In this document: positions 14,060 to 63,121 of the stretch, piece by piece
Numbering within the stretch: the first letter of the stretch is position 1
How the letters are laid out: every line of letters starts with the position of its first letter
Origin: Ilex aquifolium
Lineage: Eukaryota > Streptophyta > Magnoliopsida > Aquifoliales > Aquifoliaceae
Length of the DNA: 64,000 nucleotides
Assembly: GCA_951799425.1 (NCBI GenBank)
Contig: OX637406.1
Location: 26,468,390 to 26,532,389, forward strand
Reading direction: 5' to 3'
Made by a program: the position numbers and the translations under genes
The notes under the pieces: generated by a model
Told to the model about the DNA's origin: nothing
The model's input: only the letters and a program-made list of their open reading frames with translations
Database searches by the model: none

Positions 14060-15786
14060 TGATTAGCACACAACTTTGTATATTTTTAAGATGCTAATCA
14101 ACTCATTTCACTTGCTTTTGAGCATTAAATGATCTAAGTTATGATGATTGAAGTCTTAACATCAATTTGTTGTTTTTGTAGTTGAATGAAGCTAAATATG
14201 GATTTTAATGACCCTCCCATACCACGTGGGATGAAAGGAGTTGAAATGATAGTTTGAGGATAGATCGGGAGCAAAGAAATCAAGAAATTCAGAAAAGGAT
14301 GCATAACAGTACCTGTACTCGGTACCGGTACCAAATGGTACCGGTACCCAGTACCGGTACTGAAAACCTACTGGAATCACAGTACCGGTACCCAGTACCG
14401 GTACTGAAAACCTACTGGAATCGCAGTACCGGTACTCGGTACCGGTACCAAATGGTACCGGTACCCCGTACCGGTACTGATTTCCTGAAGTGCCCAAATT
14501 CTGCAGATCTGCTCAGCTGTCTTGTGGACCCCTCCATGCTTTTCTCCTGCACGCCCACAACACTATTCATGCTGTTCACACTCTCTCTTGTACTTTGATT
14601 GCATTGAGCATTAATGAGAGGAAAGAGAAGTGGAGTTGCTGGGTGTTGATGACTGCTCTGCCATGCCCCTGTCTAGCCCATCACCTGCAACCTATTGATG
14701 GAGATCACATCTCCAGGGCTACCCCTGTCCCTTGGCACGTTTTGATGTAGAGGGTTCTCCATTGTTGAGGGGCAGTATGTATTACATAAGAGAGTTTTTA
14801 GAGAGAGATGCTCCAAGCGTAGAGATGATGAATAGTAGATTCTAGAGAGAGAAAGTTGTAATTTTCACTTATTTTCCAGTACATTGCCTTGCATTCTTCT
14901 CTAAGACTCTTTAGAACTTCTTCTAATGCCATTAATGTAAGTTCTTTCATGCTTTTCACTAGTTTAATGTTCTCTTCCACTTTCTACCATTAATGAATTA
15001 AAGTTCTTCATTTTCATAGCTATGTAATGGGTTTAAATGCATTTTCTTTTATCTCATGAATTCTTGTACTTTGTAGCTTTAGAAGTTCATAGATTTGCAA
15101 TGCACTTTCATTACATAGTCATTTTCCATTCCAAGTATGAGTAGCTAAATCCTTTAGTTGGCAAGACCAAGAGGGATCTCCTTTGGGGATACCATTTCAA
15201 CTCTTTCTCCTCCTTCTCTTTAGAGTCAAATGGTTCGTTTTGACCGGATGGAAGATGGATGAGTCGATGAGTCTTTGATAAACCGTAGGCCTAGTCACGG
15301 TTTATGCTTAGATACTCACCGACGTCATCCTCGGCTTTCCGTGATTCAAGCGTTCATTCATGCTCAATCGGAGGAGTGATTTGAGTTGAGGTGGTATACC
15401 CATTGGAGTGATCTCTTGGAATTGCCAACACTTGTTTTATCATTACATCTTCATTAGCATACACTTCACCAACCAACTTCCAAGAACAAAGATTTTACTC
15501 TTTAATTTTCCACTAAATCACTTTCACATTGGTTCACTTCCTTCCCTGTGGAATCGAACTTGGAATACTTTCCAAGTAAAACACAACTCACGAAAGTTTC
15601 CTTGCGATTGGGGAGCATTTTTGTGCATACACATTCCATACCTACATCATCCCATTTCCCTTTCCTCATTGCCCTTTCTTTTGACACTATCCCAAAGGGG
15701 GAGAAATCCTTCCTTCCGCTCATACATTGCATCATTTGAGGGATAGCATTTTAGGGGTTAGGAAAGACATAGTTTCCAATCAATCA
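14060..15786 (+). repeat. 5' LTR of element A (1727 bp)
   Basis: Runs from TGATTAGCACACAAC to CCAATCAATCA. It is 76 bp longer than the 3' LTR mainly because its palindrome array has nine units against six. Downstream of the array it is homologous to the LTR of element F (shared blocks around ATTAATGAG, CTGTC-AGCCCAT, GGCACGTTTTG and the last 350 bases). Confidence 0.95.
14313..14477. repeat. GTACCGGTAC palindrome array, 5' LTR of A
   Basis: Nine perfect copies of the 10-bp palindrome start at 14322, 14338, 14351, 14382, 14395, 14426, 14439, 14455 and 14468, with one degenerate copy at the left. Pairs of palindromes alternate with the spacer AAAACCTACTGGAATCRC. No clear TATA box was seen within 100 bases downstream in this LTR. 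Confidence 0.97.
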
Positions 15787-15790
15787 TTTT

Positions 15791-15808
15791 TGGCGCCGTT
15801 GCCGGGGA
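15791..15808 (+). other. Primer binding site, tRNA-Asp (element A)
   Basis: TGGCGCCGTTGCCGGGGA is complementary to the 3' end of tRNA-Asp including CCA, four bases after the LTR terminus. This primer is usual for Athila-type elements. Confidence 0.95.
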
Positions 15809-15998
15809 AGGCAAGTGTCAAACCAAGAGAGTGATTTCCGAACAATGGAGGTAAGTCCCGTGATCTTCATCACGGGCTGAGGTACGTTGTTTTGTGCACA
15901 TAATTTTTGTTGTCTATAATTTCATTTGTGTATAGTTTTGTTGCATGTGGGGAAGGGACGATCATCACTGATTAGTTAGACAACCCTTAGGCCCCAAC

Positions 15999-23837: not shown

Positions 23838-23904
23838 GTACCGGTACTCGGTACCGGTACCCAGTACCGGTACCAAAAACCTACTGGAATCGCAGTACCG
23901 GTAC
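23838..23904. promoter_or_regulatory. GTACCGGTAC array upstream of the third ORF of A
   Basis: Four perfect GTACCGGTAC copies start at 23838, 23851, 23864 and 23895, with the spacer CTACTGGAAT at 23881-23890. The palindrome and spacer are those of this element's LTR array. It lies about 150 bases before a TATA box and 260 bases before the ATG of the third ORF, which suggests a second, internal promoter. Confidence 0.85.
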
Positions 23905-24056: not shown

Positions 24057-24063
24057 TATAAAA
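24057..24063 (+). promoter_or_regulatory. TATA box of the third-ORF promoter (element A)
   Basis: TATAAAA is preceded by a pyrimidine-rich stretch and lies 99 bases before ATG 24162. Predicted from sequence and from the matching layout in elements B and D. Confidence 0.65.
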
Positions 24064-24161
24064 CCCCCATGATCTAGATTATTTTCCACAGGCCTCCTCC
24101 ATTTTACCCTACCCTTATAGCCGAATCTCAAGTTCCTCATATTCTCTCCATTCATTACACA

Positions 24162-25378
24162 ATGCCTCGCACCAAGATGGTCGGATCAGAACCAGAGCCC
24201 ACTCCCCCTCCTGCCATGGGTTCTGCAACCGCAAAAGAAGTGGAGAAGGATCGAGTGGGGACCCTGAGGAGCAGAGAAAGAAGGCCAAGAGGGATGCTCG
24301 ACGCCAGTTGATTGACGGTAAGAATGTGACCTGTGAACGTTTTTTGGATAGGCTTTCCCTTTCCCCCATTCATCCTGCTGTGAAAATCATTGAGGGGTAT
24401 GGGATGCAATTCTGGTTTAAGGAGGTTGTGGGATACAATTTGGCCATGGTGAGGGAGTTTTACCGTTCACTAAATTTCATTGAGAATGATGATGAAGGAG
24501 TGTTGAGAGCAAATGTTAGGGGTAAGATTATTGTGGTGACCCCTGATGTCATAGCCACATTCCTTGGGGATTACCAGAGACCCCCATCCAGACCACCCGT
24601 TTATCCTCGCAAAATGGGTAAGCCGAAGACTAAAGAGGAGCTTGTCGAGTTGATGTATGAGGATCCTGCTACGTTCAGGGGAACCTTTCAGAGTGGGGGG
24701 TTGAAGCATGTTTATGGGCTTCTTAACAAACTCCTTCACTATAATCTTTACCCAAAATTCGCAGAGAAGAAACCAAATGTGGAAAAGTTGAACCTCCTAG
24801 ATACCGTCGTGTCGGGCAAAACAATGGATTTTGCCCTTATCATTTGGAATGTGATGAAGGACTTTGCCACCACTGAGAAGCCGATGGCCAATCTACCATA
24901 CGGAAGCTTGGTTACCCGACTGTGTGACCATGCTAAGGTTAAGGGCTATGGACTGGAAAAACTGACCCCCCCTGAGTTTGGAGCTATTGGCAGGGCCAGC
25001 AGTCAGAAAAGGAAGGCCATGAGCCGTGGGGATCGAGCTCAATCTGACTCTGAAGAGGATGTTGCACCTGCTGTGCCCACCATGCCATTCAAGCCTGTTT
25101 TGAAACGCTCAATCCATCAGAGACTTGGTGCCCTGGAAAAGACAGCGCATGGAATTGAGACCTCAGTGCATGAAATTAAGACCTCAGTTCAGGAAATGGC
25201 AACAATGTTGAAGGAGATGTATGTACACACATTTCCTGAGAAAGCTGTCCCAGAAGTTCCTGCTGCACCTTCAACCTCCAGAATGTATGTGGAGGAGGAA
25301 GATTCTGAGGCTGAAGATGATGAAGAAGATGAGGAGGGGGATGAATTTGAGGGTGATGATGAGAGTGATGGAGAGTAG
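24162..25378 (+). pseudogene. Element A third ORF: putative plant transposon protein (one frameshift)
   Basis: ATG 24162 opens a frame (MPRTKMVGSEPEPTPPPAMG) that loses register by one base at the A-run near 24230; the main frame then stays open from there to TAG at 25378. The central part (FWFKEVVGYNLAMVREFYRS, RGKIIVVTPDVIATFLGD) is the domain annotated in plants as 'putative plant transposon protein', found in Athila-like elements. A heptad-like segment near 25120-25220 (IETSVHEIKTSVQEM) suggests a coiled coil, and the C-terminus is strongly acidic. No signal peptide or membrane segment was seen, so it is not an obvious envelope protein. Function unknown. Confidence 0.82.
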
Positions 25379-25694: not shown

Positions 25695-27345
25695 TGATTA
25701 GCACACAACTTTGTATATTTTTAAGATGCTAATCAACTCATTTCACTTGCTTTTGAGCTTTAAATGATCTAAGTTATGATGATTGAAGTCTTAACATCAA
25801 TTTGTTGTTTTTGTAGTTGAATGAAGCTAAATATGGCTTTTAATGACCCTCCCATACCACTTGGGATGAAAGGAGTTGAAATGATAGTTTGAGGATAGAT
25901 CGGGAGCAAAGAAATCAAGAAATTCAGAAAAGGATGCATAACAGTACCGGTACTCGGTACCGGTACCAAATGGTACCGGTACCCAGTACCGGTACTGAAA
26001 ACCTACTGGAATCACAGTACCGGTACTCGGTACCGGTACTGATTTCCTGAAGTGCCAAAATTCTGCAGATCTGCTCAGCTGTCTTGTGGACCCCTCCATG
26101 CTTTTCTCCTGCACGCCCACAACACTATTCATGTTGTTCACACTCTCTCTTGTACTTTGATTGCATTGAGCATTAATGAGAGGAAAGAGAAGTGGAGTTG
26201 TTGGGTGTTGATGACTGCTCTGTCATGCCCCTGTCTAGCCCATCACCTGCAACCTATTGATGGAGATCACATCTCCAGGGCTACCCCTGTCCCTTGGCAC
26301 GTTTTGATGTAGAGGGTTCTCCATTGTTGAGGGGCAGTATGTATTACATAAGAGAGTTTTTAGAGAGAGATGCTCCAAGCGTAGAGATGATGAATAGTAG
26401 ATTCTAGAGAGAGAAAGTTGTAATTTTCACTTATTTTCCAGTACATTGCCTTGCATTCTTCTCTAAGACTCTTTAGAACTTCTTCTAATGCCATTAATGT
26501 AAGTTCTTTCATGCTTTTCACTAGTTTAATGTTCTCTTCCACTTTCTACCATTAATGAATTAAAGTTCTTCATTTTCATAGCTATGTAATGGGTTTAAAT
26601 GCATTTTCTTTTATCTCATGAATTCTTGTACTTTGTAGCTTTAGAAGTTCATAGATTTGCAATGCACTTTTATTACATAGTCATTTCCATTCCAAGTATG
26701 AGTAGCTAAATCCTTTAGTTGGCAAGACCAAGAGGGATCTCCTTTGGGGATACCATTTCAACTCTTTCTCCTCCTTCCCTTTAGAGTCAAATGGTTCGTT
26801 TTGACCGGATGGAAGATGGATGAGTCGATGAGTCTTTGATAAACCGTAGGCCTAGTCACGGTTTATGCTTAGATACTCACCGACGTCATCCTCGGCTTTC
26901 CGTGATTCAAGCGTTCATTCATGCTCAATCGGAGGAGTGATTTGAGTTGAGGTGGTATACCCATTGGAGTGATCTCTTGGAATTGCCAACACTTGTTTTA
27001 TCATTACATCTTCATTAGCATACACTTCACCAACCAACTTCCAAGAACAAAGATTTTACTCTTTAATTTTCCACTAAATCACTTTCACATTGGTTCACTT
27101 CCTTCCCTGTGGAATCGACCTTGGAATACTTTCCAAGTAAAACACAACTCACGAAAGTCTCCTTGCGATTGGGGAGCATTTTTGTGCATACACATTCCAT
27201 ATCTACATCATCCCATTTCCCTTTCCTCATTGCCCTTTCTTTTGACACTATCCCAAAGAGGGAGAAATCCTTCCTTCCGCTCATACATTGCATCATTTGA
27301 GGGATAGCATTTTAGGGGTTAGGAAAGACAGTTTCCAATCAATCA
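25695..27345 (+). repeat. 3' LTR of element A (1651 bp)
   Basis: Pairs with 14060-15786. Its palindrome array has six GTACCGGTAC copies (starts 25944, 25957, 25973, 25986, 26017, 26030). Followed by the target duplication GTTGT at 27346-27350. Confidence 0.95.
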
Positions 27346-29826: not shown

Positions 29827-30082
29827 TGATTAACCCTAACTAGTATGTAAATTAAAATGATTAAGTAATCAACTTTGTAAGATAAAACAATTAAAAATAA
29901 TGAATTAGGTTTTGTGCGTAAACTAGGGTTTTATGAGTTTTATGTTTGAAATTTCAGGGTTTAAATGCAGAATTGACCGAAAATACAAGGAACAATGTAT
30001 AGAAGCTTGAAAGAGCAAAGACCAAAGTGTAAAACGACACATGTAAGCTCCAGCAAACGACACATGGATCAACTGCAAAGCA

Positions 30083-30121
30083 CCACCGTCCGGACGGTGG
30101 TGGTGGCATCTGGACGGTCCT
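30083..30121. promoter_or_regulatory. CCGTCCGGACGG palindrome in D LTR
   Basis: A perfect 18-bp palindrome, CCACCGTCCGGACGGTGG, at 30083-30100, then a degenerate half copy (CTGGACGGTCC) ending at 30121. It lies 57 bases before the TATA box at 30178. The same core occurs upstream of this element's third ORF. Confidence 0.85.
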
Positions 30122-30911: not shown

Positions 30912-30916
<5 letters not shown>

Positions 30917-31150: not shown

Positions 31151-31155
31151 TTACT
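31151..31155. repeat. Target site duplication TTACT, left (element E)
   Basis: TTACT at 31151-31155 and 44775-44779 flank element E inside the D LTR. Confidence 0.95.
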
Positions 31156-32570
31156 TGTAACACCCCAAAACACACCCTGGACGGCATTACATACGAAAAC
31201 CATCTACATCATGAGAGCACTAAAATAAACCCTTCATAAATAAGACTTCATAAAATTCATTCATCACACTTACATCATTATCCCAAAAGAATATGCCATC
31301 TTTGGCCTTTACATTGCAAAAATCAACTAATGTAGCGCAGCGGAAATAACAAAAGAAAACTAGACATCACAAGGTTCAAAATGAATATCCTAGTCTAGAA
31401 CAAAAGTAAGCGACATCTCTAGAGGTCCCACTCGGGATCCAAGTATCCCTCTAGTGAAGCCTCTTCATGGCCCGGTTCATTAGCACCGAGCTCATCCTCT
31501 GGCACCAAATCTGAAAAATGTTCAACTGTAGGGGGTGAGCACAAAGCTCTGTAGAAAAATCCTCCCAAACCCAAACAAGGTTTAGAAAAATATATAAAAC
31601 AAGTCGGTGTCAGTTCACAATTAACATATATAAGATTTGAAGTAAAAACAAGGACATTTAAACAAATCTAAAGTTTAAGCCGTAACAATAATCCAGTGAA
31701 AGGTTGTATATTGGTTCATCCCCGTACCATGTATGTTGATTGCTTCTCATGAATCTACCCAACGATTATACCTAGTCCACTAATCACTATCACAATCACA
31801 AACACTTTAGGAAAGGGCGTCTACCATCCCAATGGCAGTGACGAGTCCCTTCCCAGGAAAAGTATAATATCCCTTGTTCGAACTTCAGTGAACGAGAGTG
31901 GTTGCATTACCAAATGACAACCCACTTCAAGTGTTAGGAAACCATTTCACCCCCACTGGGATAGACTAACCTCTAACACTCTACGGCATCTCTCGATGAC
32001 AATCCAAGTCCATCACAACAACCATACCAATGAGGAAACCAAAATATTCTCATTTTACAAGCATATCTCAAAAATCCCCGAATTTAGAATGAGACAATTT
32101 CAATAACCCATTTTAAGAAAAATACAAGAGATCATTCCACATAATTTTATCACTCAATACAAAGCACTATAGTTTCGAAATCAATAATAAAGGAAGAATT
32201 TTGGAAGAAAATCCATCCCTCTCCAAAACTATGGTTTTAAAGCAAGCAAAGAGATTTCATGGGTATTCAACCCTCACTTTGTTTAAATCATGTAATCTTT
32301 ACAAAAAGACTAAGAGATGATGATTTCATATCATATATATAACATTTAGGGCAAAACATACATATATACATAAGCCCTAAGCCTCAATGAAAGAATTTGA
32401 GAAGAACCCCCTACCTTCTTCTTCCTTAGTGTTCTTTGAGGAACTTGAAGTTTTGATCCTCTTCAATGTGTAAATCCTCTCTTGATCTTGTGTTTTCCCC
32501 TTATTTCTTCCTCTCTAAGATTATCTAGGGTTAGAAATGTTGAAATGAGGCTAATGGGGGTGTCCTTAAG

Positions 32571-32580
32571 TATTTATAGT
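32571..32580 (-). promoter_or_regulatory. TATA box in E 3' LTR
   Basis: The minus strand reads ACTATAAATACTT. It lies about 50 bases downstream of the nearest CGTTCGAACG palindrome. The other LTR has the same site at 44064-44073. Confidence 0.7.
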
Positions 32581-32631
32581 GAAAGAAATGGCCTCCTGTG
32601 CGCGATTCTGAAGTTCAGAATTCGTCATTGG

Positions 32632-32762
32632 CGTTCGAACGTCATTGGCGTTCGAACGGTTGTTGCTCCCAGTACTTTTGTTTTTCCATCAGACAAAGAG
32701 TACTGGAACGCACTTTCGTTCGAACGTTTATTCACGTTCGAACGTCGATTCACGTTCGAACG
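32632..32762. repeat. CGTTCGAACG palindrome array, E 3' LTR
   Basis: Five perfect copies start at 32632, 32649, 32717, 32735 and 32753. Between the second and third is a spacer with AGTACTTTTG and AGAGTACTGGAACG. The palindrome and a related spacer occur in Athila-type element B. Confidence 0.97.
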
Positions 32763-33280
32763 GAATTCCTGTTTCTGCTGCAACTTCCAGTGAAGTTTTG
32801 GCCTATTTAGAGATTGATTTGGAAAATTTTCGTGAGATACACTTTTGTAGCCCTGGATGTCTAATATCTACTGTCCAAATGTCAGATCAATTGGACATAA
32901 GAATAAAAATTTATGACCAAAATATTAGAAGGTGTCCCAACTCCTTTTTTACCCAAATTCTCTCTAAGTGTGTCTTTTCTCCAAAATACTTCCTAACTTC
33001 CAATACATCTCATATTACCTCTCCCAAGGTTGTTCGACCTTCCGGATTCAATGGACACCTTATTTTGACCTAAAAATATTTAGAAATTCATCTAATCACC
33101 CTTTCCAAGTTTAAACGTCTTGGAAACTTCAACTTCCCAATCAATATGCATTTCTAGCATTTCTCCTACTATTACAATCTATATAGTTCATTCTTACATC
33201 ATTACACATATCCACATTTTTACAACAATTATTTAATATATATCTATATACATATATAAAAGAAAATGTGGGGTGTTACA

Positions 33281-33295
33281 ATCCACCCCCCTTAA
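33281..33295 (-). other. Polypurine tract of element E
   Basis: The minus strand reads TTTAAGGGGGGTGGAT directly before the 3' LTR terminus at 33280. Confidence 0.88.
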
Positions 33296-33321
33296 AGAAA
33301 GTTTCGTCCTCGAAACTTACC

Positions 33322-36170
33322 TCAAGTAGCGAACAAATATGGATACTTCTCCCGCATTTCTTGCTCCGGTTCCCATGTAGCTTCCTCCACTCCATGGTGT
33401 TGCCACAAAATCTTCACCAATCGGATAACTTTGTTGCGAAACACTTTTTCCTTGGCGTCGAGAATTTCTACCGGTTGCTCTTCGTAGGTTGCTCCATCTT
33501 GGATTTCAATCTCCTCCAAGTTCACGACTGGAGTTGCATCCGAGCGACACTTTCTCAACATGGACACGTGGAACACGTCATGTACTCCGGATAGCTGGAC
33601 TGGTAGTTGAAGTTGATATGCCACCTTGCCTACCGCTTTGATTATCTCAAACGGTCTGGTATATCTTGGCGCTAATTTCCCCTTTTTGCCGAATCGAAAC
33701 ACGCCCTTCTTGGGTGACACCTTGGGAAATACGTAGTCTCCCACCTTGAATTCTATGGGTCTTCGTCGGTGGTCCGCATAGCTCTTCTGTCTACTTTGCG
33801 CCGTGCGTAGCCTCTCTCGGATGAGTTGAATCTTCTCCGTAGTTTCTCGAACAATGTCCGGTCCCAACAAACTACTCTCACCGGCTTCTAACCAACACGT
33901 TGGTGATCGGCATGGTCTTCCATACAATGCTTCATACGGTGCCATCCCAATACTTTCCTGATAGCTGTTGTTGTAAGCAAACTCCACCAACGGTAAGTGG
34001 TCGCTCCAACTCCCCTTGAAGTCCAACGTGCAAGTGCGTAACATATCCTCCACAATCTGGATCACTCTCTCGGATTGGCCATCCGTTTGGGGATGAAAAG
34101 CCGTATTGAAATGTAACTCCGTCCCCATTGCTTGTTGTAAACTCTGCCAGAATCTCGCCACAAACCTAGAGTCACGATCCGACACAATCGAGAGCGGAAC
34201 GCCGTGTAACCTCACTATCTCACGGATATACAGCTGGCTCAAAGTCTCGAATGTATCCGTGGTCTTCATACCCAAAAAGTGAGCGGACTTGGTGAGTCTA
34301 TCCACAATGACCCACACCGCATTATGCCCACGCGACGTCCGTGGTAAACCCGACACGAAGTCCATGGTGATGTGATCCCACTTCCACTCTGGAATGGGCA
34401 ACGACTGTAGGACTCCTCCTGGCCTTTGATGCTCAATCTTCACCTGCTGGCACACCGCACATTTTGCCACATACTTGGCCACATCTCGTTTCATTCCCCT
34501 CCACCAGTACTGACGCTTCATGTCCCTATACATCTTCGTGCTACCGGGGTGGATAGCAAACTTGGAGCGATGACACTCTCCAAGTATTTCCTCCTTTAGG
34601 GACGAATCATTGGGAACACATAGCTTCTCCCCATATCTCAACTCTCCATTCTTCCAAGACCATCCTTCCATCGCTTCTCCATTCTCCAATCGGGCTCTAA
34701 TTAAATCGAGTTCCGAATCTAGGCATTGCAACTCCACCACTCGTTGCAAAAACGTCGGTTGAGCCACAAGGTTGAATAGAAATGGTTGATACTCCGGTCC
34801 ATCCACCCATAGATCGTACTCCTCCAATGCATCAATCATTTTCCACCTAGTTACCACAAGAGAATTGATTTCACCCCGAGACTTCCTGCTAAGAGCGTCG
34901 GCAACTACATTGGCCTTCCCCGGATGGTAGTTGAGCGTGAACTCATAATCTTCCAAGTACTCAATCCACCTTCTCTGCCGGAGATTCAAGTCTTTTTGTG
35001 TGAAGATATACTTGAGGCCCCGTATAAATAACATCTCCACAGCTTAAGAGCAAACACCACCGCAGCCAGCTCCAAGTCGTGTGTGGGATAATTCTGCTCA
35101 TGCACCTTGAGCTGCCTCGAGCCATAAGCCACTACCTTCCCTCCTTGCATTAGAACGCATCCCAAGCCTCGTAGTGAAGCATCGGTGTAGACATCGTAAC
35201 CTTCCCCACTACTCGAAATAATGAGGATAGGTGCCGTCGTCAACTTCTCCTTCAAGGTGCAAAAAGCTAGTTCACACGCTTGAGTCCACAAAAATTTCTC
35301 CCCCTTCTTTGTGAGGCGAGTCATCGGCTTCACAAGCTTGGAGAACCCTTCCAAAAACCTACGATAATAGCCGGCTAACCCCAAGAAACTCCGTACTTCT
35401 GTCACGTTCTTCGGTGGTTCCCATTTCATCACGACCTCAATCTTTGCGGGATCAACCGCTACTCCTTGCTCGGACACAACATGGCCAAGGAACTTCACTT
35501 CCTTCATCCAAAACTCGCACTTGCTCATCTTCGCATATAACTTATGTTCTCTCAATGTTTGTAGCACAATAGAGAGATGACAAGCATGTTCCTCCTGAGT
35601 CTGTGAGTAAATCAATATGTCATCAATAAACACAATGACAAATTGATCGAGGTAAGGCCGAAAGACTCTGTGCATCAAATCCATGAATACTGCGGGGGCA
35701 TTAGTCAACCCGAACGGCATCACCGTATACTCGAAATGACCATACCGGGTACAGAAAGCAGTCTTAGGAATATCCTCTTCCTTAATCCGCAGCTGATGAT
35801 ACCCCGTGCGAAGATCAATCTTGGAGTAATACTTCGAACCCCTCAACTGATCAAATAAATCGTCAATTCGGGGCAAAGGGTATTTATTCTTCACGGTAAC
35901 CCGATTCAACCTTCGGTAATCCGTGCACAACCGTAGTGTCTCATCCGTCTTCTTCACAAAGAGAACCGGGGCTCCCCAAGGTGAGGTGCTTAGACGGATA
36001 AACCCAATCGCCAACAAGTGATCCAACTGCTTCCTTAGCTCCTTCAACTCCAAAGGTGTCATCCGATAAGGAGCAATGGATATGGGTTCAGTTCCTGGAT
36101 AAAGATCAATCTTGAACTCAATCTCCCTTTGTGGAGGTAATCCAGGTAATTCGTTAGGGAAGACATCCGA
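33322..36170 (-). pseudogene. pol: Element E pol with chromodomain (broken in RNase H)
   Basis: Reverse transcriptase occupies about 36150-35450 with the active site FIDDILIYS near 35620. RNase H starts near 35230 and is damaged near 35018: the coding sequence jumps from YLYG to LKYIF, losing about a dozen residues including the conserved Asp-His segment and shifting the frame. The integrase follows in the shifted frame (H-H-C-C near 34570-34440, core [21 protein letters not shown]). The C-terminus ends in a chromodomain-like segment ([20 protein letters not shown], about 33400-33340), which directs chromoviruses to heterochromatin marks. Without RNase H this copy cannot complete reverse transcription by itself. 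Confidence 0.92.
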
Positions 36171-37790
36171 AAAATCCGATACTATCGACACTACGTCCGC
36201 ATGGGATTTATCCCGATCATCTCCCATTAAGCTGGCTAAGAAACTCAACTGGCTCCCCGCCTTCGCTTTCAAGAATCTACTACCCGTAGTAGGAAATGGA
36301 TGGGAAGAATTTCGATCATTCATGAAAGTAAAGACTACCCCTCCCGGTAATTGGAATGAGATTCGCTTGCGAAAACAATCCATCACCGCGCGGAAAGCGG
36401 ACAACAAATTCATCCCAAATATAACGTCATACCCCTTCATGTCTAACACAACCAAATCTACAATCAATTCTTGATCCCCAATGCGAAGCACACATCCTCT
36501 ACACACCCTAGTTGTATCCAAGCGTTCTCCCGTCGGCATATCAATACTCAAAGCATGTTCAAGTTTCCCAAAATCCAAACCCAGATTAAGTGCATATTTC
36601 GTGCGTATGAATGAATGTGTAGCACCGGGGTCAAATAAAATTCGGGCCCAAGAATTGTAGAGAAGAACGATACCTTCCACAACGGCATTGGAGGTATCTT
36701 CCTCCGGTTGGGTCAAAGCAAATACTCTCCCCTGAGTGGCGCCGCCTGGGGCTAGAGCTCCCAACGGCCTCTGCTGCTGTAGTGGCTTGTTTGCAGCCAC
36801 TTGTCTTGTCGTTTGGTTGTCCCTCGGTGGAAGCGATGGGCAATTGTGTCTGAAGTGCCCCACTCCTCCACATGCAAAACACTGACAAGGGTCTGTGGCT
36901 GTCCTCCCCGGTACACCTCCTGCTCCTTGAGCTACCAGCGGTCTATGTCCCCCTGCCTGGTCTGGGCGACGGTATGGCGTCGGCCTCTGTGCTCCACTGC
37001 CGCTAGCACCCATCCTGATCGGACCTCCCCTCATAAGGCTCTGTCGCCGCTGAGTATCCTCCATGTCCCTCTCCACAAGTGCGGCTCTATCAACCAGATC
37101 CCCATACTCCCTGATCTTGAGAGCCACCAACTTTTCCCGGATGACAGGCCTGAATCCCTGCTTGAAGCGCTTGGCCCTTTCGGCCTCAGTAGATATAAAT
37201 CCCATAGCATAACGGGAGAGCTCGTCGAACCGCCTCTCATACTCAGCCACGGTCATACTACCCTGTCGGAGTGCAAGAAAATCCGCCTTCATTCGATCTC
37301 TGACCGATTCAGGGAAGTACTTATCTTGGAAAAGTTGATCGAACTCTTCCTAAGTGAGTGTGTCGGTGTCCCTTCTCCTCTTTATGGCATCCCACCAATA
37401 GTCGGCCTCCCCCTCGAACAGGTAGGTCGCCAAACCAACCCTCAACTCCTCGGCAACTCCCATGCTGTCACAGATTTTCTTCACTCGGCGGATCCATCTA
37501 TCCGCCTCCAAAGGATTAGAGCTCCCTTGGAAGTTGGGTGGTCGTTGTCTTAAGAATTCCCGAAGAGCTATCATCCTTCGGTCTCCGTTCCCATTGCCCG
37601 GTACTTGAGCGAGAGGATGAGCTCCACCATTGTGGTTGTTGTTACCATTTTGGCTTTGTACCAAAGTGGTGAGCTCCCTCAAGCATTGGTAAATGCCTTG
37701 CATGGCATCCGGAGGTGGAGGTGGTGGTGGATTTGCTTGACCTCCATGGCCACGGCCACGTCCGCGTCCCCGTCCTTGTTCGCCGTTCAT
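36171..37790 (-). pseudogene. gag: Element E gag and protease (one stop)
   Basis: The likely start is ATG 37790 (MNGEQGRGRGRGRGHGG), a Gly/Arg-rich N-terminus followed by a proline run. The gag domain covers about 37560-37080 and is interrupted by TAG at 37350-37352. The zinc knuckle ([14 protein letters not shown]) is near 36880-36840. The protease motif reads D-P-G-A-T-H-S near 36640, with Pro where D-S/T-G-A is usual, so protease activity is doubtful. The frame continues into pol without a stop. Confidence 0.88.
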
Positions 37791-37975: not shown

Positions 37976-37987
37976 GCTCTGATACCA
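37976..37987 (-). other. Primer binding site, initiator tRNA-Met (element E)
   Basis: The reverse complement reads TGGTATCAGAGC, three bases from the LTR at 37991. Confidence 0.93.
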
Positions 37988-37990
37988 TTT

Positions 37991-40155: not shown

Positions 40156-40159
40156 TTTT

Positions 40160-40180
40160 TGGCGCCGTTGCCGGGGATCG
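40160..40180 (+). other. Primer binding site, tRNA-Asp (element F)
   Basis: TGGCGCCGTTGCCGGGGATCG, four bases after the LTR end; 21 bases match tRNA-Asp. Confidence 0.93.
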
Positions 40181-40185
40181 CTGCC

Positions 40186-40380: not shown

Positions 40381-40701
40381 AAGCAGGATTTGGTTGTTTT
40401 TGTTTGTTGTGTCTGGTAAGGGTGGAGCAGAGAATTAGGGTTACTCTCTTTTTGGTGTCGGCCTGTAGAAGTGTCCTTAAGTTCTGGCCGTTTGTTTTGT
40501 TATGATTATGCCCACATTGTAATGAACTTGTCTATGAAATACCACAATGGGTTGATTGTCGTTGTACAAAGTTAAAACCATATTTGCAATATGATTTTGT
40601 TGATTTTACCTTGTTGAGATTTTATGAATGTATGTGTTCATATTGGTTTGGGATTGGGAATTATATTTGCTAGGGACTAGCAAATCGCAAGTTAGGGGGT
40701 G
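40381..40701 (+). other. Element F 3' noncoding region and polypurine tract
   Basis: T-rich stretch ending in GCAAGTTAGGGGGTG (40687-40701) directly before the 3' LTR. CTAGGGACTAGCAAATC precedes it, as in elements A and D. Confidence 0.8.
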
Positions 40702-42824
40702 TGATTAGCACATAACAATGACATGTATGGTGTGCTAATGTGCTTTTGTTTCACCTTTTTGTCAATAAATGGGAGTGTTTTGGTTTTGTTTGTGGCTTGA
40801 TGGAATTTTGGGTGAATGCATGTAAAATGATGTAAATGACATGATTTAAACCCCCATGGTGTTTTATGAGGCTAATGGAGTGTATGGGGTAGCTTTAAGG
40901 ATGGTCTGGAGGGGAAAGAAATCCAATTTTTGCTCACAGTCTGAAAACCTTCCGGAAGGTGTATGTCGTCCTTCCGGAAGGTTTTGCTAAAAACCCTGGA
41001 TGCCTTGTTCACAGCTAATACCTTCCGGAAGGTTTTGTCCACTGGAATGAACCTTCCGGAAGATTTTAGCTACTGGAGTAAAACCTTCCGGAAGGACTTG
41101 TCTACTGGAATGAACCTTCCGGAAGGTTTTGCCTTGGGTTTCTTTTTGACTGCCAAAATCTTCCGGAAGGTTTTGTTTTCTGGAATGAACCTTCCGGAAG
41201 ATTTTAGCTACTGGAGTAAAACCTTCCGGAAAAACTTGTCTACTGGAATGGACCTTCCGGAAGGTTTTGCCTTGGGTTTCTTTTTGACTGCCAAAATCTT
41301 CCGGAAGGTTTTGTCTTCTGGAATGAACCTTCCGGAAGGTTTTGGCTACTGGAATGAACCTTCCGGAAGATTTTTGCTACTAATGTCGACCTTCCGGAAG
41401 TTCTTGCATTTGATTCTTTTCATTTAACTGTTCTTTCAGCGACCTTCCGGTAGGTGTATGTCGACCTTCTGGAAGGTTTTTTTTGCACTTTTCTCCAGAC
41501 AGCCTGTAACTCAACTTTGCGGCTTGGAGGGTCCCACATGCACTTCTCCTACATGCTTCCTGACATCCCTTACACATCCTAGAGCTTCCCTCACCCCTGC
41601 ATTGATTGGGATGAGTCTTGATAATTAATGAAGAGAGAGAAGAAGAAGGAAGCTGGGTGGGCAGACAGCTCTGCCTCACCCCCTGTCCAGCCCATGTTGC
41701 TGCACCCCTAGTGATGGAGATCAACTCTGTAGACCTCCCTCTCTCTCCAGGCACGTTTTGGGGGGAAAGCAAGAGTCTCCTTGGGGGGGGGGGGGATATT
41801 GATTCATCATGTATTACATTAGAGATAGTTTTTTGGAGAGAGGAGCTCTAGGCAGAGAAGAGGATGAATAGTGGTTTTTAGAGAGAGAAAGTGACGATAT
41901 TACCATTTCTCCTACTGCATTTGCCTTGTAATCTTGAGTATGAATCTTAGTAGTTCATGGAATGCCATAAATGTTGTTTTCCCTTCATGTTTGGTTAGTT
42001 GAATGCTCCCATTTATGCTCTACCATTAATGCTTTCAAGATTATTCTTGTTCATAGATATAAAATAGCTTTTCATTTCATTCACTTCTAGTCTAGGATTT
42101 CTTGCACTTAGTTACTTAAAAACTCCATAGCCTTAGAATGCATGACCTTTACATTATCATGTCTAGTTCAAATATGAGTAGCTAAGCACTTTTTGTTGGC
42201 AAGACCAAGGGGAATCCTCATTGGGGTATACCATTTCAACTCTTTCTACCCCCTCCCTTTAGAGTCCCATGGTTCGGTTTGACCGGATTGAAGGTGGATG
42301 ATTTGGTGAGTCTTTGATAACCCGTAGGCCTAGTCACGGTTTATGCTTAGGCACTCACCATCATCATCCTCGGCTTCCCATGAATCAACCGTTCATTCTT
42401 GCTCAATCGGAGGAGTGTTTTGAGTTGAGATAGTATACCCATTGGAGGGATCTCTTGGAATTGCCAACACTTGTTTTCTCATTCTAATTTCACCAACACA
42501 CACTTCACCAAACAATTTCCAACAACAAGAATTTTACACTTTCTTTTGCACTAAATCACTTTCACATTTGCTCACTTTCTTCCCTGTGGAATCGACCTTG
42601 GAATACTTTCCAAGTAAAACACAACTCATGAAAGTCTCCTTGCGATTGGAGAGCATTTTTGTGCATACACATTCCATATCCACATCATCCCATTTCCCTT
42701 TCCTATTGCCCTTTCTTTTCACACTATCCCAAAGGGGGAGAAATCCTTCCTTCCGTTCATACATTGCATCATTTGAAGGATAGTAGTTAAAGGGTTAGGA
42801 ATAGGATTGTTTCATGCTCAATCA
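40702..42824 (+). repeat. 3' LTR of element F (2123 bp)
   Basis: Nearly identical to the 5' LTR apart from about 140 extra bases of palindrome units at 41340-41480 and a slightly longer G run near 41785. The right target copy GTAGC follows at 42825-42829. Confidence 0.93.
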
Positions 42825-42829
42825 GTAGC

Positions 42830-44774
42830 GCAGCGGAAATAACAAAAGAAAACTAGACATCACAAGGTTCAAAATGAATATCCTAATCTAGAACAAAAGT
42901 AAGCGACATCTCTAGAGGTCCCACTCGGGATCCAAGTATCCCTCTAGTGAATCCTCTCCATGGCCCGGTTCACTAGCACCGAGCTCATCCTCTGGCACCA
43001 AATCTGAAAAATGTTCAACTGTAGGGGGTGAGCACAAAGCTCTGTAGAAAAATCCTCCCAAACCCAAACAAGGTTTAGAAAAGTATATAAAATAAGTCGG
43101 TCTCATTTCACAATTAACATATATAAGATTTGAAGTAAAAACAAGGACATTTAAACAAATCTCAAGTTTAAGCCGTAACAATAATCCAGTGAAAGGTTGT
43201 ATATTGGTTCATCCCCGTACCATGTATGTTGATTGCTTCTCATGAATCTACCCAACGATTATACCTAGTCAACCAGTCACTATCACAATCACAAACACTT
43301 TAGGAAAGGGCGTCTACCATCCCAATGGCAGTGACGAGTCCCTTCCCAGGAAAAGTATACTATCCCTTGTTCGAACTCCAGTGAACGATAGTGGTTGCAT
43401 TACCAAATGACAACCCACTACAAGTGTTAGGAAACCATCTCACCCCCACTGGGATAGACTAACCTCTAACACTCTACGGCATCTCTCGATGACAATCCAA
43501 GTCCATCACAACAACCATACCAATGAGGAAACCATGATATTCTCATTTTACAAGCATATCTCAAAAATCCCCGAATTTAGAATGAGACAATTTCAATAAC
43601 CCATTTTAAGAAAAATACAAGAGATCATTCCACATCATTTTATCACTCAATACAAAGCACTATAGTTTTGAAATCAATAATAAAGGAAGAATTTTGGAAG
43701 AAAATCCATCCCTCTCCAAAACTAGGGTTTTAAAGCAAGCAAAGAGATTTCATGGGTATTCAACCCTCACTTTGTTTAAATCATGTAATCTTTACAAAAA
43801 GACTAAGAGAGGATGATTTCATATCATATATATAACATTTAGGGCAAAACATACATATATACATAAGCCCTAAGCCTCAATGAAAGAATTTGAGAAGAAC
43901 CCCCTACCTTCTTCTTCCTTAGTGTTCTTTGAGGAACTTGAAGTTTTGATCCTCTTCAATGTGTAAATCCTCTCTTGATCTTGTGTTTTCCCCTTATTTC
44001 TTCCTCTCTAAGATTATCTAGGGTTAGAAATGTTGAAATGAGGCTAATGGGGGTGTCCTTAAGTATTTATAGTGAAAGAAATGGCCTCCTGTGCGCGATT
44101 CTGAAGTTCAGAATTCGTCATTGGCGTTCGAACGGTTGTTGCTCCCAGTACTTTTGTTTTTCCATCAGACAAAGAGTACTGGAACGCACTTTCGTTCAAA
44201 CGTTTATTCACGTTCGAACGTCGATTCACGTTCGAACGTCGATTCACGTTCGAACGGAATTCCTGTTTCTGCTGCAACTTCCAGTGAAGTTTTGCCCTAT
44301 TTAGAGATTGATTTGGAAAATTTTTTTGAGATACACTTTTGTAGCCCTGGATGTCTAATATTTACTTTCCAAATTTCAGATCAATTGGACATAAGGATAA
44401 AAATTTATGACCAAAATACTAGAAGGTGTCCCAACTCCTTTTTTACCCAAATTCTCTCTAAGTGTGTCTTTTCTCCAAAATACTTCCTAACTTCCAATAC
44501 ACCTCATATTACCTCTCCCGAGGTTGTTCGACCTTCCGGATTCAATGGACACCTTATTTTGACCTAAAAATATTTAGAAATTCATCTAATCACCCTTTCC
44601 AAGTTTAAACGTCTTGGAAACTCCAACTTCCCAATCAATATGCATTTCTAGCATTTCTCATACTATTACAATCTATATAGTTCATTCTTACATCATTACA
44701 CATATCCACATTTTTACAATAATTATTTACTATATATCTATATACATATATAAAAGAAAATGCGGGGTGTTACA
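42830..44774 (-). repeat. 5' LTR of element E, second part
   Basis: Continues 38171 after removal of F and one target copy, matching 31337-33280. The palindrome array has perfect CGTTCGAACG at 44125, 44211, 44229 and 44247 and a mutated copy (CGTTCAAACG) at 44193. The minus-strand TATA box is at 44064-44073. Confidence 0.93.
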
Positions 44775-45293: not shown

Positions 45294-45299
45294 AGTTTT

Positions 45300-47159: not shown

Positions 47160-48272
47160 TTAGGAAGTAGAAGGTCCTCCTCCGTAATGATCTCTAAATA
47201 ACTTTAAAAGCTCAGCTTGATTCTGCTCATATTCATCCATGCGTTTGTCAATCTGAATAATGCTGGTCTCCATCCCTAGTAAGATTTGTCTATCAGTTCT
47301 GTCGTCCACTGGTATGTATGGTTGATCTTCTTGTGGTGGAGGTTGTTCTTGTGGTATGAATCCTTCAGGTACCTGGAATGGCTCTTCTTGTTGTGCAGGT
47401 GATGCTTCAGGTTGGTCTTCCGGTTGTCCTCCATGACTCTTTTTCAATGAAGTTTTATCCAATGCTCCAAAATGGTCCACTGTCTTCCATATCGGATCAA
47501 TGATCAGACCCTTGTTCCTGCATAGCTGAGAAACTAACATAGCATATGGGAGTGATGGTTTCTTTCTATCCACAGCAAGTATCATTTGGTCCATGATTAA
47601 GTTCAGCAGGTCAATTGTGTGTCTCATCCCAAATGCATATAAGAAATAAGTCTGCTCAGTATAAATTTGATTCTTTTGGGCTCAGGGTAGCAAATTGTAC
47701 ACTGTTATCAAATTGAGAATTCTGTATTTGTCTGTCAGATCTCCTTGCTTTATATATTTATTTGGTCTACCCCAAACAAATTTTGGGTTCCCCGTCACTT
47801 CTCTTCCTATGACATTCAAATCAGGTAATTTAGTATAAGGATATTGTGGGTTCTCTTGTCTTTGTATGGGTTGAAAAAAATCAGCTATAGTAGCCGGTGT
47901 AACTTGAAAAATAATACCCCGTACGAACACACATAATTGTCTTTCCCCACTTATATCAGTATTACAATAAAATTCTCGAACTAATCAGTCATAGGCAGGA
48001 GCAGATAATCTAACATAATCAAGCCATCTACGTGCAACAAGAATTTGTCTTACTCCTATATTCTCAAAATCTTCATAAATAACTGGCCGTTCAGAAATGA
48101 TAGTTTTAGTCAGAAAATTAGTATCATACCAGGCCTGTTGTTCACAATTCTCAAACATCACCTCATTGAAGATATTTCCTGGTTCAAATTGTTGTGGAGG
48201 TGCTTGCGGTGGTGGAGATTGATCCCTTCGTGCTCGGCTTGAAGACCCTCTTGTTCGTCGTCTTGAATCCAT
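47160..48272 (-). pseudogene. Element D third ORF: putative plant transposon protein (two stops)
   Basis: ATG 48272 with a strongly basic start (MDSRRRTRGSSSRARR), then a domain homologous to the element B protein at 63122 (shared patterns such as YEDFENIGVRQ against DDFAGIGIRQ, and LTDKYRILNLITVYN against LTDKYKMMNLIAVSN). In-frame stops lie at 47985-47987 and 47682-47684. The C-terminus has a proline/glutamine-rich stretch and a heptad-like segment (METSIIQIDKRMDEYEQNQA) suggesting a coiled coil, as in element A, but no acidic tail. No signal peptide or membrane span. Function unknown. Confidence 0.8.
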
Positions 48273-48483: not shown

Positions 48484-48534
48484 TATATATAGGGGCACTA
48501 CCGTCCGGACGCTAGTCCCACCATCCGGACGGTG
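48484..48534 (-). promoter_or_regulatory. Third-ORF promoter of D: CCGTCCGGACG palindromes and TATA box
   Basis: In the transcription sense: a near copy CACCGTCCGGATGG (48521-48534), a copy CGTCCGGACGG (48501-48511), then TATATATA (48491-48484), then ATG 212 bases further on. The palindrome core is that of the D LTR (30083-30100), which also sits upstream of a TATATATA box. Confidence 0.75.
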
Positions 48535-53713: not shown

Positions 53714-53898
53714 TGATTAGTACTTAAAGTTGACATATTATTATGACATTTTAAGACTAATTTTACTTTAATGGAGTTTAAGTGATGTCATTTTAGGCCC
53801 TAAACTGAACAAGGACCCAAGAACAATAAGTACCACACTTGGATGCAGCACCAGTACATTAGAGCCCAAAATTGGAGAAGCTTGGAGCACAGCCAGAA

Positions 53899-54262
53899 CG
53901 TTCGAATGCCAACTCACGTTCGAACGTCCATATTGCACTGTAGCAGACTCAACTGCTGAAGAGAATGCGTGTTGCAGTTAGGAAAAAAGACTGGGGCTCT
54001 GAAGTACTTGAGTGTCACGTTCGAACGCCAACTCACGTTCGAACGTGCATTTGAGTTAATGGAAGACCAGACCACTGCAGAGAGTTGGAACTGAACTTCA
54101 CAGAAGACCAACAGATCACTCGAGTGAAAGGGGTCAGAGCAGATCTGGTGTTCGAACGCCCTCAGTTCAAAAACAGAAGAAACGTTCGAACGGCAGTCAA
54201 CGTTCGAACGCCTTCAGTACAAAAACAGAAATAACGTTCGAACGCCAACTCACGTTCGAACG
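53899..54262. repeat. CGTTCGAACG palindrome array, B LTR
   Basis: Perfect copies start at 53917, 54018, 54036, 54183, 54201, 54235 and 54253; degenerate copies at 53899 (CGTTCGAATG) and 54149 (TGTTCGAACG). Copies often come in pairs 18 bases apart with CCAACTCA between. Confidence 0.97.
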
Positions 54263-54358
54263 TTATCCACAGACTGGCAGCAGAGTTGTTGACTGTTCAC
54301 TTGGACTTGGGCGGCAAACACTATTCTTTCACCCCCCCCCTTGTCTCCTCCTCTTGCC

Positions 54359-54366
54359 TATAAATA
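54359..54366 (+). promoter_or_regulatory. TATA box of B LTR
   Basis: TATAAATA after a C-rich run (10 C near 54331), 97 bases downstream of the last palindrome. Confidence 0.75.
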
Positions 54367-55682
54367 CTCCCCTTGTTGGAGAGCTAGAGGAGCCATAGTA
54401 GGAGGTAGAAAAATTGATGGAGGCTTAGACTCCCACTCTCATTGTAGATTTAACTCATTTTTCCTTGTATGAAGTCTTTATTTTAGAGATTAGTTTGGCT
54501 TTAGTCCAACATCTCTTGCTTGTTATAACAGTAGTTTTGTGCTTATGCTTATGTTTATGCTTTCATTTCTCATGCATAGAAGAGAGATAGCTCACATTTT
54601 GGTTCAGGAAGCAACCCTCCAATTCTTGGTTGAGGAAGCCACCCTCCAAATGTGACTAGCTCTCTTCTACTTTTATTGTTCATGCATTTCACTTCCATTG
54701 CTTGAGCTTCTTTCTTTCTTAGAAGAGTGAAACTCTTCCACTTTTCTAGAGCTTTATTAAAGCCGTGAAGGGTGGAACGTGATTCACCCATTCTTTGTTA
54801 AAGATTGGCTCCGCGTTTGTTGTTACTTTATCTTTTAAAGTTCTCCACTTGGAGGGATGAGCATCACTCACTTTTCTAGCTTCACCCAAGCCATGAAGAG
54901 TAAGTAGTTTCTCATTCACTCTTTAGTAAGAGGAGAAGGGCATGTATAAGTTATCCGGGAATCATATTTGTGCAATGTTTTTATGCTTAACGTTTATTTC
55001 TTCTTGTTATCGGATGATTGATTGCATCTAGCAAAGCTAAGGTACTTTGTATAACTGTGAGCTCTTTCTATGACATGGATGACTCCTGCATAGAAAAACT
55101 CATCAGTTCAAGGCAAGTACCCCGGCTAGATCCTCATGACTACCCTTCAATCTTTCCCCTTATTGTACTTCATTGAAAGAATGGAATATTAATAGCATGA
55201 TTGGATGTCTTGTAGAAACACTTGCTTGTTTGTAGACGGGTTAAGTCCCGGCACAGGCAATTCTTGTAAACTTCTAGAAAGACATCGGAATCATGTTCTT
55301 AATTCTCACAATCCATCTTTATCTTCCGATTGACTTGCTGTTGACACGAGAGTTAATTGAGTTATCAAGCACAATTATGACAAACCGGATAACTGACTAC
55401 ATGTCCAGATCCTTGCACTAAAGAGTGACTCTTTTTAATTAGCATCTATCCCCTATTTTGTTAAGAAAATCCTCTTGGAAAGAATCTTATATTCTGTCCA
55501 AGAAAACTCACAACTTACAGCAAATCTCAAAAGTTACAATCAAAAAGTCTCTACCACTGCTTGCCTTAGAAATATCATCAAAAGTTCCCTGTGGATTCGA
55601 CTCCGGACTCAAACCGGATTATTACTACAGCTTGACCGCCTGCACTTGGGTGTATACACATTGGATCAAGCCATCAAGTTTT

Positions 55683-61921: not shown

Positions 61922-62332
61922 ATGGATGTAAATCTTTTTTGGTTTAGCCTAGGAGTCCTACGTACTTTTTCATCTGATGTACATACGATCATCATGAGAA
62001 AAGCAAGATTAGTAAGGAAGGCTGAAATCAAAGAAAAACAAGCGAAACCCCTTTTTGGCAGAAGCAGCTTTGCCAAACGCCGTCGTGCAAATAGGCTTGG
62101 TGCCTGTAAACAGTGTGGCAGATTCTTTCACGAAAAAAGGTACAACCAGTGTTCTGAACCAATTTCCGGTCGCGCACTTGATCGATTAGATTGGATAGTG
62201 AATGGGCTGAGTAAGGATTACCCTGATACGCCATGCTATTCCGGTACTGTGCTTAACCGATTTGTGAGAGAGGAAGTTGGGAGAGTTACTGGTTGTCCAT
62301 TTTACACAGACACAGAGGGAGACTCAGATTAG
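61922..62332 (+). CDS. Element B small zinc-finger ORF (carlavirus NABP-like), intact
   Basis: Open from ATG 61922 to TAG 62332 (136 residues); the internal ATG at 61994 matches the start in element D and is the more likely start (112 residues). From the first Met: basic stretch AKRRRANR at residues 51-58; finger with Cys62, Cys65, His70, Cys77 (C-x2-C-x4-H-x6-C); SEPISGRALDRLDW; acidic end TDTEGDSD. D has the same residues in the finger. The order Arg-rich stretch then small finger resembles the cysteine-rich nucleic-acid-binding protein family of carlaviruses and vitiviruses, some members of which suppress RNA silencing or act in the nucleus. Kinship is inferred by eye. The function here is unknown. 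Confidence 0.75.
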   Translation: MDVNLFWFSLGVLRTFSSDVHTIIMRKARLVRKAEIKEKQAKPLFGRSSFAKRRRANRLGACKQCGRFFHEKRYNQCSEPISGRALDRLDWIVNGLSKDYPDTPCYSGTVLNRFVREEVGRVTGCPFYTDTEGDSD

Positions 62333-62601
62333 ATAATTTTCTGTAGGAAATGTGTACTTTTGTTGGGGGAGTGAATGCCAAAGGTCCGAATTTGTTGTAA
62401 AAAGTGTAAAAATCTTTTTGTATAAATTTCTTTTTGACTGAAATGAAAATATGGGCCGAGTAAGGAATACCCCAAAATACCAACCTGAAGCGTGGGTAGG
62501 GGTTCATCCTGAGACGCCTTAGTTTTTGATTTAAATTTGTGTGTTTTGTTTTCTTTGATTGTATATAGTATAGTAGAGAAAAATTTTAATTTTGGTTCAA
62601 C
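62333..62601 (+). other. Element B spacer before the internal promoter
   Basis: AT-rich, noncoding. Nothing recognised apart from short T-runs. Confidence 0.5.
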
Positions 62602-62904
62602 GTTCGAACGCCAGGTAACGTTCGAACGTTGACTGCTTACAGTACTCAGCCTCTGATGAAACTTCTGCTGGAACTTAAAAGTACTGGGAGCTCAGTCCGT
62701 TCGAACGCCAATAGACCGTTCGAACGAGATTAACGTTCGAACGCCAATAGACCGTTCGAACGAAGAGTACTTACAGTACTTTGGCCTCTGACAGAAACTC
62801 AAAAGTACTGGGAGTTCACCACGTTCGAACGCCATACCACGTTCGAACGATCTATTTAAAATCCTTCTACCAACGTTCGAACGTTACAACTCAGGCTATA
62901 AAAG
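62602..62904 (+). promoter_or_regulatory. Internal promoter of B: CGTTCGAACG array and TATA box
   Basis: Nine perfect copies start at 62602, 62620, 62698, 62717, 62734, 62753, 62822, 62840 and 62874, with spacers containing CAGTACT and AAAGTACTGGGAG. TATAAAAG follows at 62897-62904, 13 bases after the last copy. A tenth copy (63110-63119) lies just before the ATG at 63122. Same palindrome as this element's LTR. Confidence 0.85.
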
Positions 62905-63121
62905 CCTGGTTCGTCGTTTTCAGCCAAAATCCCCAAATTCTTTCAAAACCCTAGAACTCATTTTCACTCCACAGACCTCAACTTGCCCTCATTCCCCAAG
63001 AATACCCAAATTCGACCTTCCATAACTCCTCCCCACATCGAAATCATCAATACCAGACCTAGAACCCTAAGTTCCAGCACTTTTCAGGACCCTCCCAAAT
63101 CAAAACCCACGTTCGAACGCC

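Follow-up and report, generated by a model that had tools for sequence, protein, structure and literature searches.

Matched palindrome arrays in the long terminal repeat and upstream of the third open reading frame of Athila-type retrotransposons in Ilex aquifolium

Introduction

In Sireviruses, a group of Ty1/copia retrotransposons, element-specific palindromes occur in high copy in the long terminal repeat (LTR) upstream of the TATA box, and in 9 of 13 box-bearing elements, those having ENV, further palindromes are found just upstream of that gene; the motif has been termed Sirevirus-specific (available text of PMC2829016). A similar layout is described here for Athila elements of Ilex aquifolium, in a stretch of 64,000 nucleotides (contig OX637406.1 of assembly GCA_951799425.1, positions 26,468,390 to 26,532,389; "the window") that is made up of LTR elements nested within one another, in an 800-Mb genome. 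As with the Sirevirus RM boxes, palindrome arrays occur at two places, the LTR and the region 5′ of an extra gene, here the third open reading frame (ORF3). Unlike Sireviruses, the Athila elements are of the Ty3/gypsy type: in Athila element A the integrase motifs, identified by eye, follow those of reverse transcriptase (RT), which is not the Ty1/copia order, the gag product matches Retrotrans_gag, and an Athila primer-binding site (PBS) is present. Since the array layout is found but the Ty1/copia order is not, these elements are Sirevirus-like rather than Sirevirus members, and their arrays are taken to work like the Sirevirus system without belonging to it. Whereas the arrangement itself is thus already known, what is new is its occurrence in another superfamily, the switching of the palindrome and capture across clades; the available text of PMC2829016 describes no switching within a kept unit, no sharing across families and no factor encoded by the extra gene.

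Three other systems are comparable. VANC proteins of VANDAL DNA transposons are element-encoded, bind arrays particular to each family and lift silencing (PMC5735166, PMC10398659, in the parts available). As here, the VANDAL motifs are short and family-specific, stand in tandem arrays in non-coding regions and diverge quickly between relatives, but the carriers are DNA transposons, the motif is another one and binding was demonstrated, whereas the Athila arrays are known from sequence alone. In foamy viruses one accessory protein, Tas, drives both the LTR and an internal promoter, the same logic as may apply to Athila ORF3; these are animal retroviruses, however, and the source text at hand does not mention matched palindrome arrays. 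The Grande gene23 of plants, which like ORF3 is an accessory gene of an LTR retrotransposon placed between pol and the 3′ LTR, is described as having a nuclear product and its own promoter (PMC7264820, PMC11963269), but is in antisense orientation, and the available text of these papers describes no matched arrays. A term search of an Arabidopsis Athila paper (PMC2410132) returned no mention of palindromes or promoters, and no matched palindrome arrays in Athila appeared among the results listed by literature searches, which covered open-licence papers.

Results

Palindrome arrays lie in LTRs and just upstream of ORF3

According to the original prediction, three Athila elements of the window (A and B on the plus strand, D on the minus strand) each carry a palindrome of their own both in the LTR and upstream of ORF3. 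The palindrome observation was confirmed and is stronger than first stated. GTACCGGTAC is present at both places in A (nine and four exact copies) and CGTTCGAACG at both places in B (seven exact copies and two with one mismatch, then ten exact copies; Table 1). The window contains 23 copies of GTACCGGTAC where 0.02 are expected and 26 copies of CGTTCGAACG where 0.01 are expected, and outside the arrays it holds no palindrome copy with one mismatch or fewer. Among all 256 palindromic 8-mers, clusters of at least three in the window are formed only by the cores of GTACCGGTAC, CGTTCGAACG and CTTCCGGAAG, apart from AT microsatellites; the clusters of these three cores are all CpG-centred and all located in LTRs or just upstream of ORF3. 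Across 138 kb, consisting of the window and its contiguous flanks, 19 clusters of at least three identical palindromic 8-mers were counted (AT-only ones excluded), while none appeared in any of 20 shuffles made within blocks of 200 bases. Genome-wide, 12,088 A-type pairs were detected in 800 Mb, and 0 with the reversed control.

Several arrays had been overlooked, namely those of GTACCGGTAC in the 3′ LTR of A and in the LTR of an element designated H1, and those of CGTTCGAACG in both LTRs of an element designated F. A third strong type had also been missed: CTTCCGGAAG, with 24 copies in the window, forms arrays in both LTRs of G, a short non-autonomous Athila-type element. The case of D proved weaker than first described. 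A 10-mer is indeed shared by its two sites, but CCGTCCGGACGG occurs a single time (30086-30097, within the 22-bp palindrome of the D LTR site), and the site before ORF3 has only CGTCCGGACG and an imperfect copy. The D LTR was attributed to D by position; it adjoins the 3′ end of D and is in the opposite orientation.

LTR and pre-ORF3 palindromes match within elements

Palindromic 10-mers were compared between the LTR and the region before ORF3 in six elements, in regions delimited by hand around the arrays: A, B, D, an Athila element in the right flank of the window (K), and two A-type elements, both on contig C1 (L7-8, two stretches taken to belong together on the basis of order and strand alone, and L15-16). 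The two places share a palindrome in all six elements and elements of different type share none, an outcome equalled in 6 of 720 permutations. A comparison of this kind, within and between elements, had been suggested with the original prediction; its outcome supports matching at the two places. Since L7-8 and L15-16 were chosen for holding A-type pairs, more weight goes to A, B, D and K, which by themselves give 4 of 4 and 1 of 24 permutations. The most important case is K, which has three exact copies of CTTCCGGAAG in the 5′ LTR, three in the 3′ LTR, and, before ORF3, one exact copy together with three that are altered. Of these three, CTTCTAGAAG and CTTCATGAAG have remained perfectly palindromic, and CTTCTAGAAG is found in the LTR of K as well. 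K agrees with what G would lead one to expect, a relative that is autonomous and carries CTTCCGGAAG at the two sites, although this expectation was not written down beforehand.

A candidate seventh pair, N (L031, about 90400-91940 in continued coordinates, in which the window numbering is carried on beyond its right end), was rejected. In N a U3 (unique 3′) region with a CTTCCGGAAG array is joined directly to ORF3 and the rest of the LTR, gag and pol are gone, the array before ORF3 being the U3 of the element's own 5′ LTR, fused by deletion. A locus with a weak Transposase_32 match (L034, 30% over 92 amino acids) and no visible array was not counted. Two bacterial records, from Streptomyces clavifer (L001) and Blastococcus endophyticus (L002), hold plant-type Athila sequence that is probably contamination and were left out of the comparison; in the former, an LTR contains an array of non-CpG repeats followed downstream by a TATA box, and no array was seen in the part of the latter that was examined. 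Viral contigs searched for Athila copies gave 0 by PBS and 0 by RT.

The claim that a TATA box lies downstream at five of the six places in A, B and D, the LTR of A being the exception, was upheld, with distances of 11 to 153 bases. TATAAA follows the pre-ORF3 array of A by 153 bases, the LTR array of B by 97 bases and the ninth pre-ORF3 copy of B by 14 bases; TATATA lies 67 bases downstream of the D LTR site and, on the minus strand, 11 bases downstream of the D pre-ORF3 site. With L15-16, where TATAWA is present at an offset of 245, four of the six pre-ORF3 arrays are followed by such a box. In F, a minus-strand TATAAA is located 55 bases downstream of the array at 32632-32762.

The array before ORF3 could be a mere by-product, the U3 of the LTR having been copied there by template switching or recombination, in which case matching would reflect shared origin and homogenisation rather than function. 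The spacers of the two arrays of A are in fact homologous when the palindromes are masked (score 38 versus 13.3, reached by 0 of 500 shuffles), N has an array-bearing U3 fused to ORF3, arrays are mobile, as seen in an H-type LTR holding an Athila-type U3 piece with its array (below), and two of the pre-ORF3 arrays are without TATAWA. In B, by contrast, the masked spacers are only weakly alike (28 versus 18.4, 2 of 500) and the palindromes, by comparison, exact, and a TATA box stands downstream of the pre-ORF3 array in A, B, D and L15-16. We consider a by-product unlikely.

Arrays are shared with non-Athila elements

F, H1 and a further element, H2, have pol DNA that is mutually alignable and gives no alignment to A, B or D, by which they are non-Athila Ty3/gypsy elements. 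Since F and H carry arrays, the proposed "family-private cis code" stands only in part: the code is matched at two places, but it is not private, the palindromes of A and B being present, at the same spacings, in the LTRs of H1 and F, respectively. The palindromes are family-specific but shared with other elements.

With palindromes masked, the spacers of F are homologous to the spacers preceding ORF3 in B (50 versus 16.5, 0 of 500 shuffles). The spacers of H1 and A alone show only a weak likeness (score reached in 20 of 500 shuffles), and the link between these two arrays is based on the palindrome, its spacing and the position of ACTGGAA. Thirteen distinct H-type LTR flanks among the loci examined, most of them picked for the A-type palindrome, comprise ten with A-type, one with CTTCCGGAAG and two with none; the five not so picked (L029, L030, L032 twice, L033) comprise three, one and one. 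H2 has no array in the window.

An H-type LTR inside K has CTTCCGGAAG where H1 has GTACCGGTAC. Its array is 94% identical over 310 bases to the G array and is embedded in about 400 bases of Athila-type U3 that flank it on both sides, after which the H LTR sequence picks up again (81% over 118 bases). Because Athila U3 stands on both sides of the array and the H LTR then resumes, the arrangement suggests that a piece of U3 was captured from the LTR of an Athila element.

The palindrome switches in a fixed scaffold and ORF3 diverges rapidly

The arrays of A, H1 and G have a 31-bp unit in common, made up of the palindrome, 9 nt, ACTGGAA and 5 nt. The unit is exact with GTACCGGTAC in all 4 A units having this length and in the single H1 unit, and with CTTCCGGAAG in 5 of 10 G units, most of the others retaining CTGGAA. 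Between A and G the palindrome is exchanged while the spacer stays; per-block identity of the A and G LTRs does not single out the array region. B and F are built on a different scaffold, with many 17-19 bp steps. All four palindrome types are of one form, a dyad of about 10 bp with a CpG centre, and differ in their half-sites.

ORF3, which contains the Transposase_32 domain, diverges much faster than reverse transcriptase. Relative to A, identities of RT and Transposase_32 are 98% and 98.6% for L15-16 and 93% and 75% for L7-8, both with the same palindrome, and 89% and 50% for K, 74% and 26.5% for B, and 73.6% and 29% for D, all with different palindromes; B and D, also of different type, are 82% and 36% identical to each other. 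A fast ORF3 together with a changing palindrome would look like the expected picture of co-evolution between a factor and its site, of which six elements are no proof.

The palindromes might instead be bound by host transcription factors, each family having recruited one, so that the sites common to the LTR and the pre-ORF3 region would bring about co-regulation with no element-encoded protein. Such an origin is consistent with the occurrence of the same arrays in non-Athila F and H and with a second motif, ACTGGAA, whose position within the 31-bp unit is constant. CTTCCGGAAG also contains TTCnnGAA, which we take to be a two-unit heat-shock element. The Sirevirus palindromes were mainly matched by their authors to sites of stress factors (PMC2829016, available text). 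Host factors are a serious rival, but since the four types have one form, differ in their half-sites and switch within a kept unit between A and G, one changing factor fits better than several host factors, and we regard the host explanation as possible but doubtful.

Finally, the palindromes could work through the structure of the DNA or RNA, as would hairpins feeding small-RNA pathways, or as CpG islands. The observed/expected ratio of CpG is 0.66-2.29 in seven clusters versus 0.56 in the window, and palindromes of maize Sirevirus LTRs are reportedly linked to epigenetic response. The recurring spacings (13/31 and 17-19) and the ten exact bases amid freer spacers suggest protein sites instead, and a purely structural role appears very improbable.

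The ORF3 protein

Transposase_32 has been linked to Athila, and a sunflower Athila ORF combines it with a predicted nuclear signal (PMC11728184, available text). In the present set, tblastn placed a Transposase_32 ORF between pol and the 3′ LTR in K, L7-8 and L15-16 in addition to A, B and the decayed copy of D. A search with the A domain yielded an internal stop in 13 rows of the best 150 scored of 5131 candidate places; these places are mostly open. A ORF3 has, by eye, a basic stretch resembling a nuclear localization signal near the N-terminus and an acidic tail, and its model has a long C-terminal helix (low confidence). The conserved start of A ORF3 (24162-24260) is in a different frame from the rest, so this copy is broken near its N-terminus. 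A sequence search of the PDB returned two matches only, at E-values of 1.8 and 4. The analysis revealed no relation of Transposase_32 to VANC, nor did the VANC domain DUF1985 match any of four ORF3 proteins at E-values up to 10; as the HMMER filters drop most weak hits, a remote homology may have escaped this search.

ORF3 of A, B, P0001 and P0002 begins, by eye, with no hydrophobic stretch. A hydrophobic stretch is found 5′ of an internal MARTK in K (end of L028) and of an internal MACTK in N; other ORF3 starts read MPRTK, MVRTK, MVRSK or MPRMK. ARTK is the N-terminus of histone H3, and histone mimicry or two start sites are possible at the K and N starts.

A candidate mechanism and points that weigh against it

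The reading we prefer, and consider evenly balanced between right and wrong, is that the arrays may be sites of a dimeric, sequence-specific factor at both places, perhaps the ORF3 product, and that other elements captured them. The arrays would then be clustered binding sites of a fast-evolving factor; the LTR array would act on the genome-length transcript, the pre-ORF3 array would probably lie in an internal promoter, and both units would respond together. Since the palindrome changes within a kept 31-bp unit and ORF3 outpaces RT, the element's own ORF3 product, the Transposase_32 protein, is proposed as the factor, possibly a positive-feedback activator or an anti-silencer. Non-autonomous G and non-Athila F and H could gain arrays and use the factor while not encoding it. 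Besides the location, matching and switching of the arrays, the basic stretch and acidic tail of A ORF3 and the mostly open Transposase_32 places speak for this reading. A fuller version, offered tentatively, would have ORF3 encode a dimeric DNA-binding regulator that co-evolves with its site, with the palindrome as a family password at both places, switching inside a constant scaffold as escape between families, and unrelated gypsy elements repeatedly taking over arrays for activation by the Athila protein.

A number of observations weigh against this proposal. The D type is weak, with one exact 10-mer per site. No TATAWA occurs in the 420 bases 3′ of the A LTR array, after the G LTR arrays, in the scanned stretch after the pre-ORF3 arrays of K and L7-8, or within 230 bases on either side of the H1 array, which is itself located near the internal end of its LTR. 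The F spacers have no likeness to those of the B LTR (score reached in 276 of 500 shuffles). For A ORF3, two AlphaFold2 models are of low confidence (pLDDT, the predicted local distance difference test, 49.6 and 59.0), Foldseek gave 0 matches in the PDB at E ≤ 0.001, and Pfam assigned no DNA-binding family to four ORF3 proteins. ORF3 of K and N begins, by eye, with a hydrophobic, membrane-like stretch, in keeping with the older env-like reading. No Transposase_32 was found in the scanned F and H1 frames; host factors would therefore account for the arrays of F and H too.

Other features of the locus

The elements, arrays and ORF3 frames are listed in Table 1. The LTR pair of A differs by 15 substitutions in 1654 aligned bases. 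The 3′ LTR of B lies outside the window (66061-68026, continued coordinates), is 98.2% identical to the 5′ LTR and has six exact palindromes. A PBS complementary to tRNA-Asp, TTTTGGCGCCGTTGCCGGGGA, which we take to be the Athila PBS, stands in exact form directly 3′ of the LTRs of A (15788-15808), G and B, with a one-mismatch copy at 45297. The latter begins a tRNA-Asp gene called by ARAGORN (45297-45374), which resembles a complete primer tRNA copied during reverse transcription and left in place; on its two sides are the end of an LTR and, in opposite orientation, a purine tract, and D may thus have an inverted terminal repeat here. G sits inside F and has no Transposase_32 ORF; its internal region contains a small acidic frame (40180-40380) that by eye resembles the acidic tail of ORF3 and has no Pfam match. 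A B-like LTR, 82% identical and with five exact CGTTCGAACG, is located on the minus strand inside K (L028, 77000-78924, continued coordinates).

Table 1. Elements, palindrome arrays and ORF3 frames in the window
Feature	Position	Strand	Description
H1, LTR of non-Athila Ty3/gypsy element	4366..6710	-	RT about 36% identical to A-like RT
H1 LTR array	4649..4715		4 exact GTACCGGTAC; spacings 13,31,13 as within A
A 5′ LTR (Athila)	14060..15789	+	LTR pair with 25695-27348
A 5′ LTR array	14322..14477		9 exact GTACCGGTAC; spacings 16,13,31,13,31,13,16,13
A pre-ORF3 array	23838..23904		4 exact GTACCGGTAC; spacings 13,13,31
A ORF3 open frame	24062..25378	+	Pfam Transposase_32, 86.4 bits (cutoff 45)
A 3′ LTR	25695-27348	+	LTR pair with 14060-15789
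A 3′ LTR array	25944..26039		6 exact GTACCGGTAC
D LTR site	30081..30121		CACCACCGTCCGGACGGTGGTG and an imperfect copy
F, non-Athila Ty3/gypsy, interrupted by G	31155..44774	-	gag-pol frames 33322-37838, minus strand
F LTR array	32632..32762		5 exact CGTTCGAACG
G, short non-autonomous Athila-type element	38172..42824	+	LTRs 38172-40155 and 40702-42824; internal region of about 540 bp
G 5′ LTR array	38417..38811		11 exact CTTCCGGAAG
G 3′ LTR array	40947..41400		13 exact CTTCCGGAAG
F other LTR array	44125..44256		4 exact CGTTCGAACG and one with one mismatch
D ORF3, decayed	47160..48272	-	Transposase_32 similarity; two in-frame stops; longest frame 27 bits, below cutoff 45
D pre-ORF3 site	48501..48534		10-mer CGTCCGGACG at 48502-48511 and an imperfect copy
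B 5′ LTR (Athila)	53714..55676	+	
B LTR array	53899..54262		7 exact CGTTCGAACG (exact ones 53917-54262) and 2 with one mismatch
B pre-ORF3 array	62601..63119		10 exact CGTTCGAACG; tenth ends two bases 5′ of ATG at 63122
B ORF3	63122..63985	+	Transposase_32, 85.7 bits (cutoff 45); stop directly after domain

Discussion

The third ORF of Athila is usually called env-like, and matched, switchable arrays bear directly on its role. If the ORF3 protein binds its own palindrome, plant retrotransposons would possess a family-specific code for transactivation or anti-silencing, one that would parallel Sireviruses in layout and VANC in logic. The sharing of arrays with non-Athila elements would then show, in nature, how a retrotransposon can exploit the regulator of another.

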